IMG/VR virus record: IMGVR_UViG_3300021090_000063
Span: 1-39,415 of that record
Source: a virus
Length of the DNA: 39,415 bases
Reading direction: 5' to 3' (one strand)
The translations under genes and the position numbers were made by a program. Below the pieces are notes generated by a model. The model was not told where the DNA came from. It made no database searches and was given only the letters and a program-made list of their open reading frames with translations. Shown one piece after another: positions 1,622 to 31,632 of this stretch (position 1 is its first letter; each line of letters starts with the position of its first letter).

Positions 1622-3426
1622 GGAGATTCATCCACAGACAAAGTCATGTTGGCCTGGACCGTCGCGCCTGTACTTATTTTTCGGATCACGATTTGCCAAA
1701 CACCCGCAGCCGCAACGTATCCGGCGGTCGACCCCGTTATCCTGAAAACAAAGCCGTATCCGTAGTCTAACGGCAGCCATGTAGCCAGGTCGCCCGACGG
1801 GTGCTCTCCGGCGTATACGAGTATGTCATCACCGGAGATATAGTTAACGCGCGCTTCGTAGTCGGCTAAGTTCGGTACGGCCCCGGCGTACCACTCGTCA
1901 AAAAGCTCATGGAGGGCTTCCGGAGGGCCTGCGTCCACGGATATTCGTGCTTTATACGACCCGGGCGACAGCGCGTCATCCGTGAAGAAATTGAGCTTCT
2001 TGGCAGCGAAGTCCCCGTACATCTCCCCCATCGCGAAATAGAGTTGTATATCCGTCACTCCCGGGGCACCGGTGTCAATGCTGCCGTGTACAGCGTGCGC
2101 CGTAAGGTTAACGCCGCCCGTCGGCACTGTTAGCGGCGCGTCGGCGACCGTCATCACCGGGATCTCTGCCACCGCTACGCCGTCGGTGTACCACGTCAAC
2201 GACACTTCATCCGAGGCGAACCGGTACGCGGCCACGAAATGAATCACGCGAATGTCGCTGGGCAAGAGGCTGAACCCTAGCGGCGCTGGGTCGTAGAGTT
2301 CGTCCATAATGTTCAATACGATCGACAGGGTGTCTGTCGAGGCCAAGCCTACGCGCCTGAAAACGTCCCCATGAGCATAGGTGCGGATCATCACCCAGTA
2401 GCGCGAGACGTCTGTCGGGTAGGGAGGGACGGCGGCGGCGAACCACAGCAACAAACCGGCACCGGTGTTCTTGCACACTATCGTCGTATCGGTCGCTGCG
2501 ATCGCGTTCGTCACAATCAAGTCGGACGTCCAACTCGGCATGTAGAACGACTGGCGACGCCCCCAGCGCCGGCCCAGGAACTCTTTGAACAAGTGTATCT
2601 GCCTGCGCGACTTGAGCAGCCAGCGCATCGGGCGTGTGACCGTGCCGAACTCTTCAACAACGAACTGCTCGATGCCGCCGGTGTCTTCATCCGCCGCTTC
2701 TCCGACGAATTCGACGTTGGTGTCGATACCGTCTGACCAATTCGGTGGCGTCAACAATATCTCCCCGCCGCCCAGCGTTGTCGTAGGACGCGCCGCCTCA
2801 TATATCGGAATGTAGTTCGAGTAAAACCCCCACGGGATGTACGAGCCGCGTTCCCCTGGGTAGTTCTCGAAGGCGATGCGCCCCTGGCTCACTTGATCAG
2901 AGAGGCGCTTTAGCGCAGCGTTGCCGAGAATACGGGCTTTACCGTACGGATAGAACGTCGTACCGGCGGGCCATGCTTTCGTTGTCGGCGCGGTCAACGT
3001 CAGCTGGCTATCTGCCACCACCAAAACCGACGCCAACTCGTACGTGTCGCGATCCCTGTATAGAACCACTCCCAGCGAGTCGTTGCCGTCGATGTCCGCT
3101 GCGGCTTTGAACGGACAGTATGTGACGTCGCCGGGGATCACCGTGGCACCTATCGCGACGTCGGCCGTGGTCACGCACCGGTACTGCCAGTCGGGCACCC
3201 AGAACGCCTGCGCTTTTGCTTTCAACAACAGGTTGTCCACCAGTTGCGCGTTCTCTTCCTTCGCCAAAAAGTCGTACTCAATGCCGCGCCGGTTACCGTC
3301 TCGAAGGCCCCTGCGTTGCTCCCACCCAGAACGCGAACGAAACACCGTTGTGTACCACTTGAACGTCTCGACGAGCGGCGTCTTCCAGTTCGGTTTGATC
3401 GGCCAGAAAAAGGTGTCAACAGCCAT
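1618..3426 (-). CDS. distal-tail-like protein, 602 aa
   Basis: The protein starts MAVDTFFWPIKPNWKTPLVE and is beta-rich with many aromatic residues. It shows two similar arrangements in which a variable region is followed by an R/W-rich segment (SGWEQRRGLRDGNRRGIEYDF near residue 35, and VTRPMRWLLKSRRQIHLFKE near residue 265). This suggests an internal duplication of the kind found in distal tail proteins. It follows the tape-measure stop by 3 nt and precedes the DUF2163-like gene, the position occupied by DUF2460-type distal tail proteins. I see no direct match to DUF2460, so the assignment rests on position and overall composition. The middle of the protein may hold an inserted carbohydrate-binding or receptor-related domain. 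Confidence 0.62.
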   Translation of the reverse strand: MAVDTFFWPIKPNWKTPLVETFKWYTTVFRSRSGWEQRRGLRDGNRRGIEYDFLAKEENAQLVDNLLLKAKAQAFWVPDWQYRCVTTADVAIGATVIPGDVTYCPFKAAADIDGNDSLGVVLYRDRDTYELASVLVVADSQLTLTAPTTKAWPAGTTFYPYGKARILGNAALKRLSDQVSQGRIAFENYPGERGSYIPWGFYSNYIPIYEAARPTTTLGGGEILLTPPNWSDGIDTNVEFVGEAADEDTGGIEQFVVEEFGTVTRPMRWLLKSRRQIHLFKEFLGRRWGRRQSFYMPSWTSDLIVTNAIAATDTTIVCKNTGAGLLLWFAAAVPPYPTDVSRYWVMIRTYAHGDVFRRVGLASTDTLSIVLNIMDELYDPAPLGFSLLPSDIRVIHFVAAYRFASDEVSLTWYTDGVAVAEIPVMTVADAPLTVPTGGVNLTAHAVHGSIDTGAPGVTDIQLYFAMGEMYGDFAAKKLNFFTDDALSPGSYKARISVDAGPPEALHELFDEWYAGAVPNLADYEARVNYISGDDILVYAGEHPSGDLATWLPLDYGYGFVFRITGSTAGYVAAAGVWQIVIRKISTGATVQANMTLSVDESP

Positions 3427-3429
3427 GAA

Positions 3430-6400
3430 TCACCGAAGCAAATTTTTGATCGAGGACGCGTTGGCGCGGAGCACATTGAGAATCGCGCGCTCGCCAGCCG
3501 CCGTTCCGGCGCCTTGTTCAAGCACTGATCCGCTGTCGATACTGTTCACGATCTTCACGTTCATCGGCTGCTGTCCTCCACCCTGCCCGCCGCCGTTCAT
3601 TACGTGGCGCGGGTCGTTGCGCTTCAACACTTCTTCGCCGCGCTCCAAGACAGCAGGCACTTCGCGAGGGCCGAGGCCTGCGACCCCTGCGACGCCGCCT
3701 GTGTGGTAGCGCGGCGCGCTGGCGAACCAGGCGGGGTTGACGGTGCGCATCGCGCCGCCTGCACCGACCACGCCGCCGGTGTGGAACGAGTAGCCGAACG
3801 CGCGGCCCACAGCCTTGATCGCGTTAAGAATCTGCTCCGCGATGATCTCTTTCGCTTTGTTGGCCAGCAGGTCCGCGAAGTAATTGCGCATGGTGTCACG
3901 TACGTTAATCCACGCATCCCCGAGGTTATGAATCTTTTCAAGCATCTCGCCGCTGGGCACCAGCGCATTCGCGAGCGCGTTCGACGCGTCCGTCGCCAAC
4001 GTCAAATAACGGGCCTTCTTCTCATTGATCTGACTCTCTTTGTCCGAGATTGCTTGAAGACCTTGAGCCACACCAGCCAGCGACAGCTTCTGTGCTTCAG
4101 TGAGTGTCGTGGACGATCGGATCGCTTCGAGCAGCGCAGTAGAGTCGGTTACTACGAACCCGTACTGCTCGCGCAACCGATCCACCTCGGCGTTGTACTC
4201 GCGCTGCGTGATCTGATGTGACCGCAACAGCTCTTTTTGTAGCTTCAGCGCGTCGCTGTGCGCCTTGTCCGCGAGCTTCACCGTCTCGGCTTGCTGCTTG
4301 ATACGCAGGAACTCGGTCTGGTCCGGCTTCTCCTGCAGGCCGATGTCGCGCAGGTTCTGCATCTGCAGTACCAGCGCCGTCAGCTCCTCCTGTGTCTTGC
4401 GCGGCAGGCGCGCAATCTGGTTCAGTAGGTCCTCGATCATCGACGTCAATTCAGGACGGTACTTCTCCTGGATGTTCTGGATCTCGGCGTTAACGCTTTC
4501 GTCGGTGAGTAGCTTCGCCCGGCCGCGCTCCTTCACAGACGAGATCTCCGCTTCGCGCCGGCTGTTCGTGCCCGAGATGGTGTCGGACAACGTGTCCACC
4601 GAGTTGCGCGCAAACTCAGCGCGCGCCTGAGACTCGCGCAGCTTCACGACTTGATCGACCTGGGCCTTCATGCGCGCGGCGGTCTTCTTGTCATGCTCCT
4701 TGCCGAACTTCTCGATGTCGGCGTACAGGTCCTTGAACTGCAGCTTGATCGCCGCCGCAAACTCATCCGCGTTGGAGGCTTCCTTCTTCAGTGACTCGGC
4801 GTTGAGCGAGTCAATGCGCGACTGCAGGTTCTGTTTGTTCGACAGCGTCTCGGCCGCCGCAGCCGCTTCAGCTGCACGCCGCTTACGGCGCTCTTCTGCC
4901 GCCGCCTCGTCGAAGGCCGTGGTATCTCCGGCGCTAGACGCGGCTGGCGCCGCCGCACCGGACGCCTTGGCTCCGGTGAACTGATTTTTAAGCAGACCAT
5001 TGATCGTATCGATGTCCGCCTGAATCGCGCGCTTCGCCGCCGCGATCTCGTCTTGACTGCCGCCGCCCAGCCACCGCGGCATGTACTTCAGCCACGTAGC
5101 CCGGATCTTGTTAACAGCTAGAGATACGTAACCCACGATAACTTGTGACCACTTCTGCACCGCAGGGAACGATGCGTACAGCCACTTGCCGATGTCCCAT
5201 CCAGACATCGCCGCCTGCGCCAACGCCAGGCCGCCCACAAGCGTACGAGAGAACGTACCTAAGCCCTTCAAGCCGGTCTCCACGGAGGCGTTAAACTGCT
5301 TGAACTTAGAGACCATCGCCAGCACAGCCTGCGACTCGCCGAGCAGGATGAGTTGCGTGCGCAGGTTCGCGACCATCTGGATCGCCTTCACGCCCAACGT
5401 AATGGCGAAGATCGTCGCGAAGATCTTGAGGTTATCGATGAAGAACTTCAGCGCGTCGACGGCCAGGCCGAACGCAACGGCGATCGACTCACCGAACTTT
5501 TGGCCTTCCGGCGACTTCAGCTTCTCGGTCAGATCTGCGATGAACGCCGTGAACTTCTGGATGAACCCACTATCGGCGATCGTCAGCTTCAGCTTCGTGA
5601 TCACGTTGTCCAGTCGGCTCAACTGTGATTGCGTGGACTGCGTAGACGTAGCCACCGCGGGAGCGAACTTCTCACGCGCCACTTTGGCGAAGTCAATCAG
5701 CGCGTCCGCGCCGGCCTTGCCGGTACCTATCCACTTGAACAGTTCGGCCTGCGACTTGCCTGTGGCCTGTGCCAGAATGGCCATCGCACCGGGGAAATTC
5801 TCGGACAACTGCCCAGAAAGCTCTTCCATAGTGAGCTTATTCTTCGAGAACACCTGCTCCAGCGCCTTGAAGATCAACTGGGTGTCCTGAGTGCTTTTGT
5901 TCATCACTGTCGAGGCTTCAGTGATTGCCTCGAATATGAACCGCGTGTCCCGCTGGCTGACGTTAGCGCCCTTCGTTGCAAGGGCGAAGCTGGCGTAGCT
6001 ACTGGCCAGTTCGAACACCTTCTTACCGAGCCGGTCTGCTTGTGCCTCGACGTACTGCATCTCCTTAGCCGCATCTACACCGAACCCGACCTTCAGCGTG
6101 TTCTCGACGGCTGTACGCTTGTTCACTACGTCCAGCACACCCTTGACCGCGTTGATTGCGCCGAACAAGCCGACGTAGCCGGCTGTCAGCGACAACACCT
6201 GACCGCGAATGCGCTGGAACGTGGACAGGGCGCGGCGTTCGCCGGTCTGATCGGCGCCGGTGATGATGGAGAACAAGCTCCGCGCTTTTGGTGCGGCCTG
6301 ACCGTACGCGTCGCCAAGGCTACGAACCGCAGCCGCAGAGCGCGTAGCGACGGTAATGCCCTGTTGGGCGGCGGCAGTCCACGCGCGTTCGCGCTCGGTC

Positions 6401-28534: not shown

Positions 28535-28786
28535 TCAGTCCTTCTTGTAGTGTGTCGTTTCAAAGCCGTGGGCTCCCAGCGGCAGCCCTTCGGCCCACGG
28601 AGGTAGCGTCGTCATGCAACGAATCAAGCGCTCCAGCGCCTCCTTCGACTTGTCCGCGGGACCGTGCGCAACCAATTCGTCGTGCACGTGCATAACGATC
28701 TCGAACTCTTCTTCGCACCCGTCGATGCGCCCGAACTCACACGCGGCGGCTTGGCTCTTGATGTCATTGAACTTGAGCGTGTTCAT
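28535..28786 (-). CDS. family A DNA polymerase, separate motif C fragment
   Basis: The 83-aa product contains IVMHVHDELVAHG, which is motif C (the HDE box) of family A polymerases, and the following typical end (LIRCMTTLPPWAEGLPLGAH, GFETTHYKKD). It begins MNTLKFNDIKSQAAACEFGR in an ATGA overlap with the larger polymerase ORF. Motif C carries a catalytic aspartate of the palm domain, so the larger part cannot be active alone. In usual phage homologues this segment continues directly from the preceding helix. Either the two polypeptides assemble, or a mutation has broken the gene. Confidence 0.88.
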   Translation of the reverse strand: MNTLKFNDIKSQAAACEFGRIDGCEEEFEIVMHVHDELVAHGPADKSKEALERLIRCMTTLPPWAEGLPLGAHGFETTHYKKD

Positions 28787-31632
28787 GCGGCCCGCCTGGT
28801 CTCGTTCTCGAACAGCATCGCGCCGTGTCGAAGCAGATCGTTCGCGACTGCCTGCACCACGTTTTCCGTGATTTTTCCGCCGTGTGTAGGTGTGCGCCCC
28901 CAGAACTTACGCTCTCCGTCGTCCTCCATGCCTTCATAGGTGACGGTCATCTTCGTGGCTCCCCACGGCGTTACCACCTCTTCGATCTTCGGCCGCAAGT
29001 AGTGGAGAGCGCGACCAGACGGCAACACGATGCGCATGAACGGAGACTTCATCTCGAAGGTAAGGCGGCCTACCGTCTGCTTTCCGCCCTCGTAGATAAC
29101 CGTCTTGGCTGCGGCTTCGAGGTCGTACCAGAACTGAACCACTTCTGGGTACGCCTCACGGAACACGGTCACGGCGGACTGCGCCTGTTCGTCCGTCATC
29201 TCTACGTGCATGCTCCGCGCGTAGCCGCGCAGTCCCGTCAACTTCATGTCGCCCGTCTTTCGATCAACCACTTCAGCGCCAGGGCCGAGTCTGAAGCCGC
29301 AGTTGTGCGCAATAAGCGGCCCGGCTGTCGTACGAATGACGAACCGAGACCGCGGGCCGCAGTCGACGATGTCATACGTTGTACGAACCGCGGCAGCCTG
29401 CTTGGTCAGCGAGAATTTGTTCGGCTGATAGCCCTTCTCGGATTTTGCGAGCGACTGTACTCGGCGTGCGGTACTGCGTTGCATGATGTAGCCAAAAATC
29501 CTCCGCGCAGTATGTTTCACCGCAATACTCAACCGTGCGGTTGACCCGTTTATTACGGTTGTTCTGTGCGCTCGTAACGAATCCGATGTTGCCTGGCTCG
29601 TAGTGCCCGTTGTTTTCTGTCCGATCAACTTGCTTGCTTGAGTCCTCCACGCCCGGTAGCGTGATGCAATGTTGGATAAACTCTTCTGCAGTTTTAAACC
29701 GGCACTCGATTCCTCGGCCTCCGTATCCTTCCTGCTCTCGACTCCCACCAACGCATCGGGCACGAATCGCGTAGAAGCGGTTGGATAGGCGCTCAACCAT
29801 GCCACGAGGCAGCTCGTGACGACCGGCCACGGACTTAACTGCTCGAATGGCCGCATTAGCGCACGCCGGGCAAGATGATGTTTTCCCCGATTCTGCGGTG
29901 CCTCGGGCTTGAAACTTCTCGTGCCCGCAGACACACCGAACAACGTACCCCCACGTTGCTTTCCCCCCGTATACCTGCCGTTCATGGCGAATGACAACCC
30001 ACTCACCGAACTGAGCGCCTCTTGGAGCAAGCGGACGTCTGACGCCACGCACTTCGACGTCATCCACCTCTCTCCTACGAGAATCAAGTGCTCTGGTGTT
30101 ACGTCTACTCCGCACAACGCTATCGTTTCTTTTTGGCCTTGGCATATCACACCACCATGTTTAACGAACTCAACCCCATCGAAAATTAGATCCGCCCTCG
30201 ACACGTGAACGATGTCCACCCAACCGCGCGACGTAAGGACTTCAGTGCCCGCAGCGAAGCAACCAAGGGTCGCTGGCTTAGCTAAGTTACGTTCATACGA
30301 CGTGATGTCTTCGTATGCCTTGCGCAACCACACCACCGCGAACGCTTTGTATATGTCCTTGCCATCCGCAAAGACTTTCAACATCGCCGGGCAGTCGGCG
30401 AGCCACGCCAACACCGCCGATTCGATCGACGACAAGTCCACTACCACGAGCTTGTTTCCCGGCTGCGCGCGAATTGCTCCGCGCAAGCTACTGCTCAACG
30501 CGGTCAGCGGGTCTGGGTACGCTGCCTCAAGCCAGAAACGATCATCGTCTTTAATGGATTGGATGATGTCGTATTGGCGCTCATCCGACTCAAACTGTTT
30601 CTTCGGTCGAGGGAGATTCTGTGGCTGTGCGCCGCGGCCGCCCCACCGACCCGTACGCGCCGCACCGCAGAATTGAAATTGATGTCGTATACGTCCATCA
30701 CAAGCCATGAGCTTCAGCGCGTGCAGCTTCTTCAGCGAAGTGCGCTTCATCTGCGCGCGCAGCTTCAGCGCTTTACGCGCCTGCGCAGTCAAATCATTCA
30801 GCGGGTCAGCCAACGCCCGCTCTACCGTCTCTTTACGCAAATCACCAAACTCGTACCCTCGTTGGCGCACCCACGGACCGAACTGTGTGTCGCTATTGGG
30901 GTTCTCGCTCGGGTCCGTCATGCCGGTGACAACACGAAGCTGCGCCAGCAGCTCTTTAACCTTGTCATCGACGTATGCGACGCCGCTCTCAATGAAATTC
31001 GTATCGAGCGGAATGCCCCGTACATTGATCGCCTGATCGAGCCTCCACATATCCCACTCATCGGGAAGCACGGGGTACTTGGATAAGCGGTTCACATACA
31101 AGAAACGTTCGGCTTCGACGTCCTGCCGGTTGTACTCGCAGAACTCAGCCCACAGCTCGGGCTCACTGAGGCTGTTGTCCCACGCCCATGGCTTGTTCTT
31201 TGTTGGCTTGCGCGGCTTACAGAATTTTCCAATGAGGTACTTGCCGCGTTTTTGCTTCTGATACTTCTCCGGCATCCTCACGACTTCGCCGAGTTTTTCG
31301 AGTCCACCGGGCAGGCCTAGCATGAACGCCAGCGCCATAGTGCACGTGCAGCGTTCGAGGTCGATGTACACGCCGAGTACGTGGTAAATGATCGCTCGTT
31401 CAAATGCAGTGTTATGCGCCTCGACATCAACACTGTCGTCCTGCAGCAGGTCTACCAGCGGCTGCAGGAGCTTGCGATCCGTGTCGCAGGTCCATTGCTG
31501 CACGGGTCCGTCGTCCAGCGCCCACGACGCCATCAGGATTCGACAGGACGGGTGACGTGCATACGCATCGAGGCCGACCTTCTTCAGATCGAGGTCGCAT
31601 GCGGTCTCGAAGTCCAGCCTCAGTAGTGTCAC
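28783..31632 (-). CDS. family A DNA polymerase, main part, containing an intein
   Basis: The 949-aa frame begins at GTG 31632 (GTGA overlap with the Lar-like stop), giving the normal start MTLLRLDFETACDLDLKKVG. Residues 1-190 are a 3'-5' exonuclease: D7/E9 (LDFET), VEAHNTAFER, and EYNRQDVEAE. Thumb and palm follow, with motif A VVVDLSSIESAVLAWL near residue 395. Motif B (ERNLAKPATLG...CGFRLG) is interrupted by a 320-aa intein (458-777). After splicing, about 629 aa remain. The protein ends ENETRRAA before motif C, which is in the next ORF. It would replicate phage DNA together with the VapE primase-helicase. Confidence 0.9.
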   Translation of the reverse strand: MTLLRLDFETACDLDLKKVGLDAYARHPSCRILMASWALDDGPVQQWTCDTDRKLLQPLVDLLQDDSVDVEAHNTAFERAIIYHVLGVYIDLERCTCTMALAFMLGLPGGLEKLGEVVRMPEKYQKQKRGKYLIGKFCKPRKPTKNKPWAWDNSLSEPELWAEFCEYNRQDVEAERFLYVNRLSKYPVLPDEWDMWRLDQAINVRGIPLDTNFIESGVAYVDDKVKELLAQLRVVTGMTDPSENPNSDTQFGPWVRQRGYEFGDLRKETVERALADPLNDLTAQARKALKLRAQMKRTSLKKLHALKLMACDGRIRHQFQFCGAARTGRWGGRGAQPQNLPRPKKQFESDERQYDIIQSIKDDDRFWLEAAYPDPLTALSSSLRGAIRAQPGNKLVVVDLSSIESAVLAWLADCPAMLKVFADGKDIYKAFAVVWLRKAYEDITSYERNLAKPATLGCFAAGTEVLTSRGWVDIVHVSRADLIFDGVEFVKHGGVICQGQKETIALCGVDVTPEHLILVGERWMTSKCVASDVRLLQEALSSVSGLSFAMNGRYTGGKQRGGTLFGVSAGTRSFKPEAPQNRGKHHLARRALMRPFEQLSPWPVVTSCLVAWLSAYPTASTRFVPDALVGVESRKDTEAEESSAGLKLQKSLSNIASRYRAWRTQASKLIGQKTTGTTSQATSDSLRAHRTTVINGSTARLSIAVKHTARRIFGYIMQRSTARRVQSLAKSEKGYQPNKFSLTKQAAAVRTTYDIVDCGPRSRFVIRTTAGPLIAHNCGFRLGPGAEVVDRKTGDMKLTGLRGYARSMHVEMTDEQAQSAVTVFREAYPEVVQFWYDLEAAAKTVIYEGGKQTVGRLTFEMKSPFMRIVLPSGRALHYLRPKIEEVVTPWGATKMTVTYEGMEDDGERKFWGRTPTHGGKITENVVQAVANDLLRHGAMLFENETRRAA
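29302..30261 (-). other. intein in polymerase motif B (320 aa)
   Basis: The intein starts at Cys (30261-30259) with block A CFAAGTEVLTSRGWVDI and has block B GVDVTPEHLILV (the T-x-x-H pattern), block F YDIVDCGPRSRFVIRTTAGP and block G LIAHN followed by Cys+1 (29301-29299). All residues needed for standard class 1 splicing are present. The site lies in the O-helix (R-x3-K motif), where inteins commonly sit. In the polymerase frame the ~200 residues between blocks B and F look non-conserved, because that DNA encodes an HNH endonuclease in another frame. Confidence 0.93.
29372..30067 (-). CDS. HNH-type homing endonuclease nested out of frame inside the intein
   Basis: This is the -1 frame relative to the polymerase ORF. 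It begins at GTG 30067, behind AGGAG (30076-30072), and gives about 231 aa. A zinc ribbon lies at YVVRCVCGHEKFQARG...SCPACANA. The nuclease core has RLSNRFYAIRARCVGG, YGGRGIECRFKTAEEFIQHC, QVDRTENNGHYEPGNIGFVT and SAQNNRNKRVNRTVEYCGET, the widespread phage family with GGRGI and DR..N.G.Y.P.N motifs. A longer frame reaches ATG 30145 but overlaps conserved intein block B. The start is uncertain; the coding frame is not. The enzyme would cut intein-free polymerase genes. Confidence 0.85.
   Translation of the reverse strand: MDDVEVRGVRRPLAPRGAQFGEWVVIRHERQVYGGKATWGYVVRCVCGHEKFQARGTAESGKTSSCPACANAAIRAVKSVAGRHELPRGMVERLSNRFYAIRARCVGGSREQEGYGGRGIECRFKTAEEFIQHCITLPGVEDSSKQVDRTENNGHYEPGNIGFVTSAQNNRNKRVNRTVEYCGETYCAEDFWLHHATQYRTPSTVARKIREGLSAEQILADQAGCRGSYNV

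Follow-up and report, generated by a model that had tools for sequence, protein, structure and literature searches.

HNH-type open reading frames are nested out of frame within a class of phage polymerase and helicase inteins

Inteins are taught as single bifunctional proteins: in the canonical form the two halves of the HINT domain flank a nuclease region, and the nuclease is made as part of the precursor. A different arrangement was reportedly described by Dassa in 2009 for 'fractured genes', in which split inteins are said to have a free-standing endonuclease gene at the break, the host gene being broken in two. The arrangement considered here was noticed in a 39,415-nucleotide (nt) stretch of viral DNA, the IMG/VR virus record IMGVR_UViG_3300021090_000063 (hereafter the window), where an intein in a gene for a family A DNA polymerase contains an HNH-type open reading frame (ORF) read in another frame. 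HINT halves flank the nuclease region here too, as in the canonical form, and the intein locus has a separate nuclease gene as in the fractured genes, but here the host stays one open frame. The canonical bifunctional form was rejected, as the HNH lies in the precursor frame in none of the 180 loci described later in the text.

The nearest annotated case is that of phage APSE-1 (NC_000935), in which the polymerase P45 has an intein with a nested coding sequence, P46 'HNH endonuclease', both being annotated; our profiles place it in the +1 frame. It differs from the window in its insertion site (YGGKS then CENICQA) and in a weaker match to the HNH profile. At this locus (L180, 2931-3353) the HNH match by profile lies well upstream of the annotated start of P46. 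The ShiLan domain (Arsenault, Gosselin and Gogarten 2025, PMC11855218) is an out-of-frame HNH in a stop-free, in-frame insertion in a phage gene, a DNA methylase, with a disjunct distribution; its authors found neither intein nor intron splicing signals and detected no ribosome-binding site near the HNH. The carrier here, by contrast, has every splicing residue of an intein, and enriched start signals accompany the HNH. An insertion of the ShiLan type, which has no splicing domains, was therefore rejected, splicing domains being present. Another out-of-frame HNH in a phage methylase is mentioned in PMC12613952. Already known, then, are the nested HNH gene in the APSE-1 polymerase annotation and the out-of-frame HNH in the ShiLan methylase insertion. 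A term search of PMC549080 and PMC1564403 gave nothing on the layout in the passages it covers, and open-access titles and abstracts, with subscription papers and preprints outside the scope, included no paper on a nuclease read out of frame within an intein that has its splicing domains. A prior description of the layout in true inteins is possible.

The observation in the window is real. In the polymerase frame the segments that we take to be intein blocks A, B, F and G are intact, as an earlier note on this DNA had claimed, and every splicing residue is found; the HNH ORF that the note placed in the -1 frame between blocks B and F is indeed there, with its own TGA stop within block F. The same note had the polymerase frame open across the HNH for roughly 600 nt; the frame is open, but the length is wrong, the overlap being 696 nt from GTG to stop. 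When the HNH codons of the window are shuffled among synonyms, 2.5 stops are expected in the polymerase frame and 1.0% of shuffles have none, so for this copy alone an open frame by chance is unlikely, though not absurd.

Relatives of the window carry the same layout. A tblastn search of phage records with the HNH frame gave matches in polymerase genes of Streptococcus, Gardnerella, Vibrio, Salmonella, Escherichia and EBPR phages, and in every polymerase case retrieved from these phages the HNH is shifted out of frame and the polymerase frame is open. For analysis, 13 of the 302 phage records with an HNH match and 6 of the 31 with an intein match were taken. Two profile searches followed these leads from opposite ends. 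In the HNH-first search an HNH alignment was scanned over IMG/VR and species genomes, with the retrieved phage loci and the window added; 177 loci had an HNH match, 69 without an intein signal were set aside, and the remaining 108 all have an out-of-frame HNH. Of these, 104 showed both intein ends, always within one open ORF, and 4 lacked one end. The intein-first search chose 86 loci by the N-domain of the intein (6 phage, 80 IMG/VR); 78 carry an HNH, all out of frame, and the remainder are six mini-inteins of 354-516 nt without HNH and two contig ends. Inteins obtained in the HNH-first search served as seeds for the viral scan of the intein-first search, which in part returned contigs already found. 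Single queries were less productive: the polymerase-frame linker and the whole polymerase matched no viral contigs, and a single-sequence HNH query found one locus, without an intein signal.

The union of both searches comprises 180 loci with intein and HNH, among them 154 distinct HNH stretches, and forms 118 clusters at 90% DNA identity. The sources are 16 phage records, 140 IMG/VR contigs, 23 genome contigs and the window. The HNH is at offset 2 (-1) in 135 loci, at offset 1 (+1) in 45 and in frame in none; the profiles derive from members of this class, so that in-frame HNH inteins of other classes would go uncounted. Thus the two-frame layout that the earlier note wanted sought in related inteins was found throughout, and homologues with an in-frame HNH, its refuting outcome, did not appear. 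Isolates from different laboratories with the HNH out of frame are phages of Salmonella, Escherichia, Streptococcus, Gardnerella, Vibrio, Pseudomonas, Caulobacter and Shewanella, and the APSE phages. The hosts of intein and HNH are PolA and some helicases, the helicase assignment resting on a reading of flanking residues. Helicase-like genes of bacterial and viral contigs have the layout at +1 in L125, L140, L143 and L148, and at -1 in L260. Judged by sequence, the layout is a conserved class.

The openness of the intein frame is not a by-product of the HNH coding sequence. Over 21,929 overlap codons of the 118 clusters, synonymous shuffling of the HNH codons predicts 452 stops in the intein frame and none is present, whereas the third frame has 1363 stops against 1360 expected. 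The intein frame is therefore actively kept open.

Close relatives also differ in the presence of the insert. Among Salmonella phages with polymerases 90-94% identical, the insert is either present or precisely missing. Among 40 matches listed (396 records matched), 15 are intein-free alleles, each aligning as two blocks that span about 2202 nt; an intein-bearing Salmonella gene has 3099 nt, and the difference, 897 nt, is the length of that intein. For the Salmonella relatives, these alignments indicate absence of the element from the same site. A quick tree of 70 HNH proteins, some of its branches long, has a single change of offset, with SH-aLRT 99 on either side of it, and about 11 changes of host site; the sites are two in PolA, four residues from each other, and those in helicases. 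Further members, including APSE-1 and Caulobacter and Shewanella phages, lie in a third region of PolA, around GGK and ENxxQA.

To the layout, its conservation and the avoided stops, computation adds selection on the HNH frame, enriched start signals and, in one group of relatives, exact empty alleles. The locus is very probably a mobile intein of two overlapping genes, with splicing from the host frame and an HNH-type nuclease from the nested frame. The polymerase precursor would be translated straight through and the intein would splice itself out, while the nuclease would be translated separately from an internal ribosome-binding site. The nuclease would then cut intein-free alleles, whose repair would copy the intein along with the nuclease gene. 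As to origin, a mini-intein probably captured a complete free-standing HNH gene; only shifted frames would survive such a capture, because in frame the stop codon of the nuclease would terminate the polymerase as well.

Several points weigh against this reading. Splicing, separate translation, cleavage, homing and origin we infer from computation only. No conserved histidine occurs among the invariant or 90% columns of the 70 aligned HNH-frame rows, and the H-N-H signature includes a conserved catalytic histidine; position 162 is Gly in the window copy and Arg in 69 of the 70 rows. At offset 2 only 29 of the 86 clusters have a start with a Shine-Dalgarno match of at least 5, and in the first set 9 of 54 have no Shine-Dalgarno match at all. 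Finally, the polymerase ORF of the window (Pfam DNA_pol_A, 7e-14; PHROG 17, 1.5e-93) ends ahead of the C-terminal HxHDE motif. As this motif is found in the next ORF, the window's own host gene may be split or damaged; its 3' end may reflect a natural split, a frameshift or an assembly error. Motif C (HVHDE) sits in that next ORF in another frame, with an ATGA overlap (window 28535-28786 and 28783). In L018 and L019, the closest relatives, the equivalent motif, CHDE, falls within a single ORF. Across the 118 clusters, HD[EAS] lies near the end of the same ORF in 103 and is absent in 13, and two run off the locus.

The layout might be right and the HNH-type protein something other than a homing nuclease, e.g. 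a DNA-binding or regulatory protein, which we regard as unlikely. Besides the missing invariant histidine and the D-R-N-N core, this alternative draws on the lack of any solved relative by sequence or fold. The AlphaFold model of the HNH-frame protein (mean pLDDT 89.4) has strands at 146-149 and 161-164 followed by a helix at 166-174, and no solved HNH chain matched it; Foldseek and VIA searches with the model returned no HNH structure, only Tudor/CarD-like matches over about residues 10-64, and a PDB sequence search with the HNH profile gave a single chance-like match. With no conserved histidine and a D-R-N-N core instead, the protein is called HNH-type by profile and no canonical HNH nuclease is claimed. 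Against a non-nuclease function stand matches to the HNH families PHROG 374 and 3377 (E 1.8e-22 and 5.5e-18), and the precise presence or absence of the insert in close phages together with the jumps between host sites, which fit homing. The earlier wording 'clear HNH enzyme' is thus slightly too strong: the PHROG families bear it out, but no histidine is conserved and the Pfam and NCBIfam profiles do not name the protein.

Conservation within the HNH-frame protein was followed in an alignment of the window with 69 of 70 other cluster representatives (A3); the corresponding intein alignment (A4) has the window and 68 of 70, and smaller subsets of 47 (A5) and 57 rows (A6) served for the models. 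D148, R149, Y156, G159 and N160 occur in all 70 HNH rows and N172 in 69. The cysteines C45, C47, C66 and C69 are invariant in 57 rows and present in 69 of the 70 rows of the larger alignment, the other having a gap, and probably form a zinc site. Many offset -1 proteins (L004, L007, L008, L010) have a leucine-rich, coiled-coil-like C-terminal tail, possibly for dimerisation; the window and the +1 group have a longer C-terminal end in its place.

How the nuclease is made bears on a second alternative, namely that programmed ribosomal frameshifting from the polymerase frame produces the HNH as a fusion. We consider this quite improbable. The HNH frame is open upstream beyond the intein start in 20 of the 118 clusters, as a fusion would allow, but in the other 98 a stop in the HNH frame lies within the intein upstream of the HNH and narrows any shift site; moreover, the two offsets are opposite and start signals are enriched. 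A start with a Shine-Dalgarno match of at least 5 occurs in 18 of the 30 clusters at offset 1 against 6.3 expected, and at offset 2 the expectation is 7.2 (two of the 118 clusters were dropped from this count). Such starts are 3 to 4 times commoner than expected, and at neither offset did any of 200 intein-codon shuffles reach the observed count. Of the 12 offset-1 PolA clusters in the first set, 10 have an ATG at intein nucleotide 145 preceded by a match between GAGGT and AAGGAGG. The HNH ORF ends within the intein in 112 of the 118 clusters and is therefore a nested gene. These sequence signals support translation from an internal start, and the support is stronger at offset 1 than at offset 2. 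The GTG with AGGAG nearby that had been noted in the window was seen again; it appears a better candidate than the upstream ATG, and its product of 25.7 kDa compares with the ~26 kDa that had been claimed.

The HNH frame could also be a decaying relic, only the intein being of importance. This is very improbable, despite a 56-aa remnant in Streptococcus phage Javan422 (L182), an early stop in L003 and the six mini-inteins without HNH. An HNH match of at least 150 aa is kept in 177 of the 180 loci, and substitutions fall mainly at third positions of the HNH codons. Over the HNH core, for pairs at 70-97% identity (L135 and loci with N in the intein dropped), HNH codon positions 1, 2 and 3 differ by 0.130, 0.086 and 0.307 at offset 2 (70 pairs) and by 0.081, 0.046 and 0.191 at offset 1 (9 pairs), a pattern resembling ordinary coding sequence. 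Compared as proteins, these pairs are more alike in the HNH frame than in the intein frame, with amino-acid identities of 0.854 versus 0.669 at offset 2 and 0.907 versus 0.762 at offset 1. The protein constraint therefore falls on the HNH frame, and the linker is for the most part only kept free of stops, with which the predicted disorder of the linker and the confident model of the HNH-frame protein agree.

Another alternative makes the insert an ORF-bearing, self-splicing RNA intron rather than an intein; we hold this to be most improbable. HNH genes are common in phage introns, but no Rfam intron was found in the window or in 12 relatives, the intein residues are all conserved, the polymerase frame is open through the insert and a HINT fold is predicted. 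In the AlphaFold model of the intein, residues 1-90 and 290-320 have pLDDT values of ~97 and the 200-residue linker ~40-62. The gp41-1, DnaX, DnaB, RecA and DnaE inteins are among the top matches of this model to solved structures, mostly with probability 0.8-1.0 and E ~0.01-0.3, and the sequence matches NEQ068 intein entries (E ~1e-4). By its Cys1, TxxH, block F Asp, His-Asn and Cys+1 and the predicted HINT fold, the window insert would be a class 1 intein, and the HINT domain of the polymerase frame is probably competent for splicing.

A sequencing or assembly error, in which two compensating indels shift a normal in-frame HNH, is a negligible prospect even though the window is one IMG/VR virus record, and it is refuted for the class because relatives share the layout: 118 clusters, isolates of different laboratories and two offsets, none in frame, together with an avoidance of intein-frame stops that no error would produce.

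Table 1. Features of the polymerase gene, its intein and the nested HNH-type ORF (window coordinates)
Feature	Position	Strand	Remarks
DNA polymerase family A ORF hosting the intein	31782-28783	minus	999 aa
N-extein	31782-30262	minus	
C-extein	29301-28783	minus	
Intein, polymerase frame	30261-29302	minus	960 nt / 320 aa; polymerase residues 508-827; Cys1 ... His-Asn, then Cys+1
Block A (CFAAGTEVLTSRG), Cys1	30261-30223	minus	C1 invariant, 69 aligned rows
Block B, T55xxH58	30111-30070	minus	T55 and H58 invariant, 69 rows
Linker in polymerase frame, residues 91-290, double-coding	29991-29392	minus	predicted disordered
Block F (YDIVDCGPRSRFVIR, D297)	29376-29332	minus	D297 invariant, 69 rows
Block G (AGPLIAHN)	29325-29302	minus	N320 nearly invariant; window reads ...LIAHN then Cys
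HNH-type nuclease gene (by profile), -1 frame (offset 2)	30067-29372	minus	GTG start; 231 aa, 25.7 kDa
Alternative ATG start of HNH-type ORF at 30145	30145-29372	minus	
AGGAG, possible ribosome-binding site for GTG start	30076-30072	minus	4-nt gap to GTG
Cysteine pairs CxC, CxxC (C45, C47, C66, C69) of HNH-frame protein	29935-29861	minus	probable zinc site
Core motif D148-R149 ... N160 ... N172 of HNH-frame protein	29626-29552	minus	
TGA stop of HNH-type ORF	29374-29372	minus	falls within block F

The mini-inteins of the same family without an HNH gene are L181, L183, L231-L233 and L256; in them the splicing domain persists after loss of the nuclease or before its gain. The Javan422 intein (2501 onward), shortened to 513 nt by profile and with an HNH remnant that is likewise out of frame, seems to be on the way to a mini-intein. 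In Salmonella phage Ent2 (L012) the polymerase intein at 2765-3661 is annotated with splicing domains only, despite its nested HNH ORF, and the intein of the adjoining helicase, at 5215-6258, is annotated with a LAGLIDADG endonuclease.

It is likely that these inteins form a large class, present at several sites in phage PolA and in bacterial and viral helicases, in which a complete, separately translated nuclease gene has been overprinted on the linker via capture, with two old clades in opposite frames, and in which splicing and homing evolve and are expressed independently. A nuclease in another frame would offer a second route to a mobile intein, and some phage inteins annotated with splicing domains only may well carry a nuclease gene after all. 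The loci are clean natural overlapping genes at two opposite offsets, one frame being under protein function and the other mainly under stop avoidance. Separate translation and homing can be put to a direct test in the Salmonella Jerseyvirus isolates, some of which have the intein and some not. Taken as a whole, the class points to a widespread mobile element that would use two proteins made from the same DNA, one to splice and one to spread.

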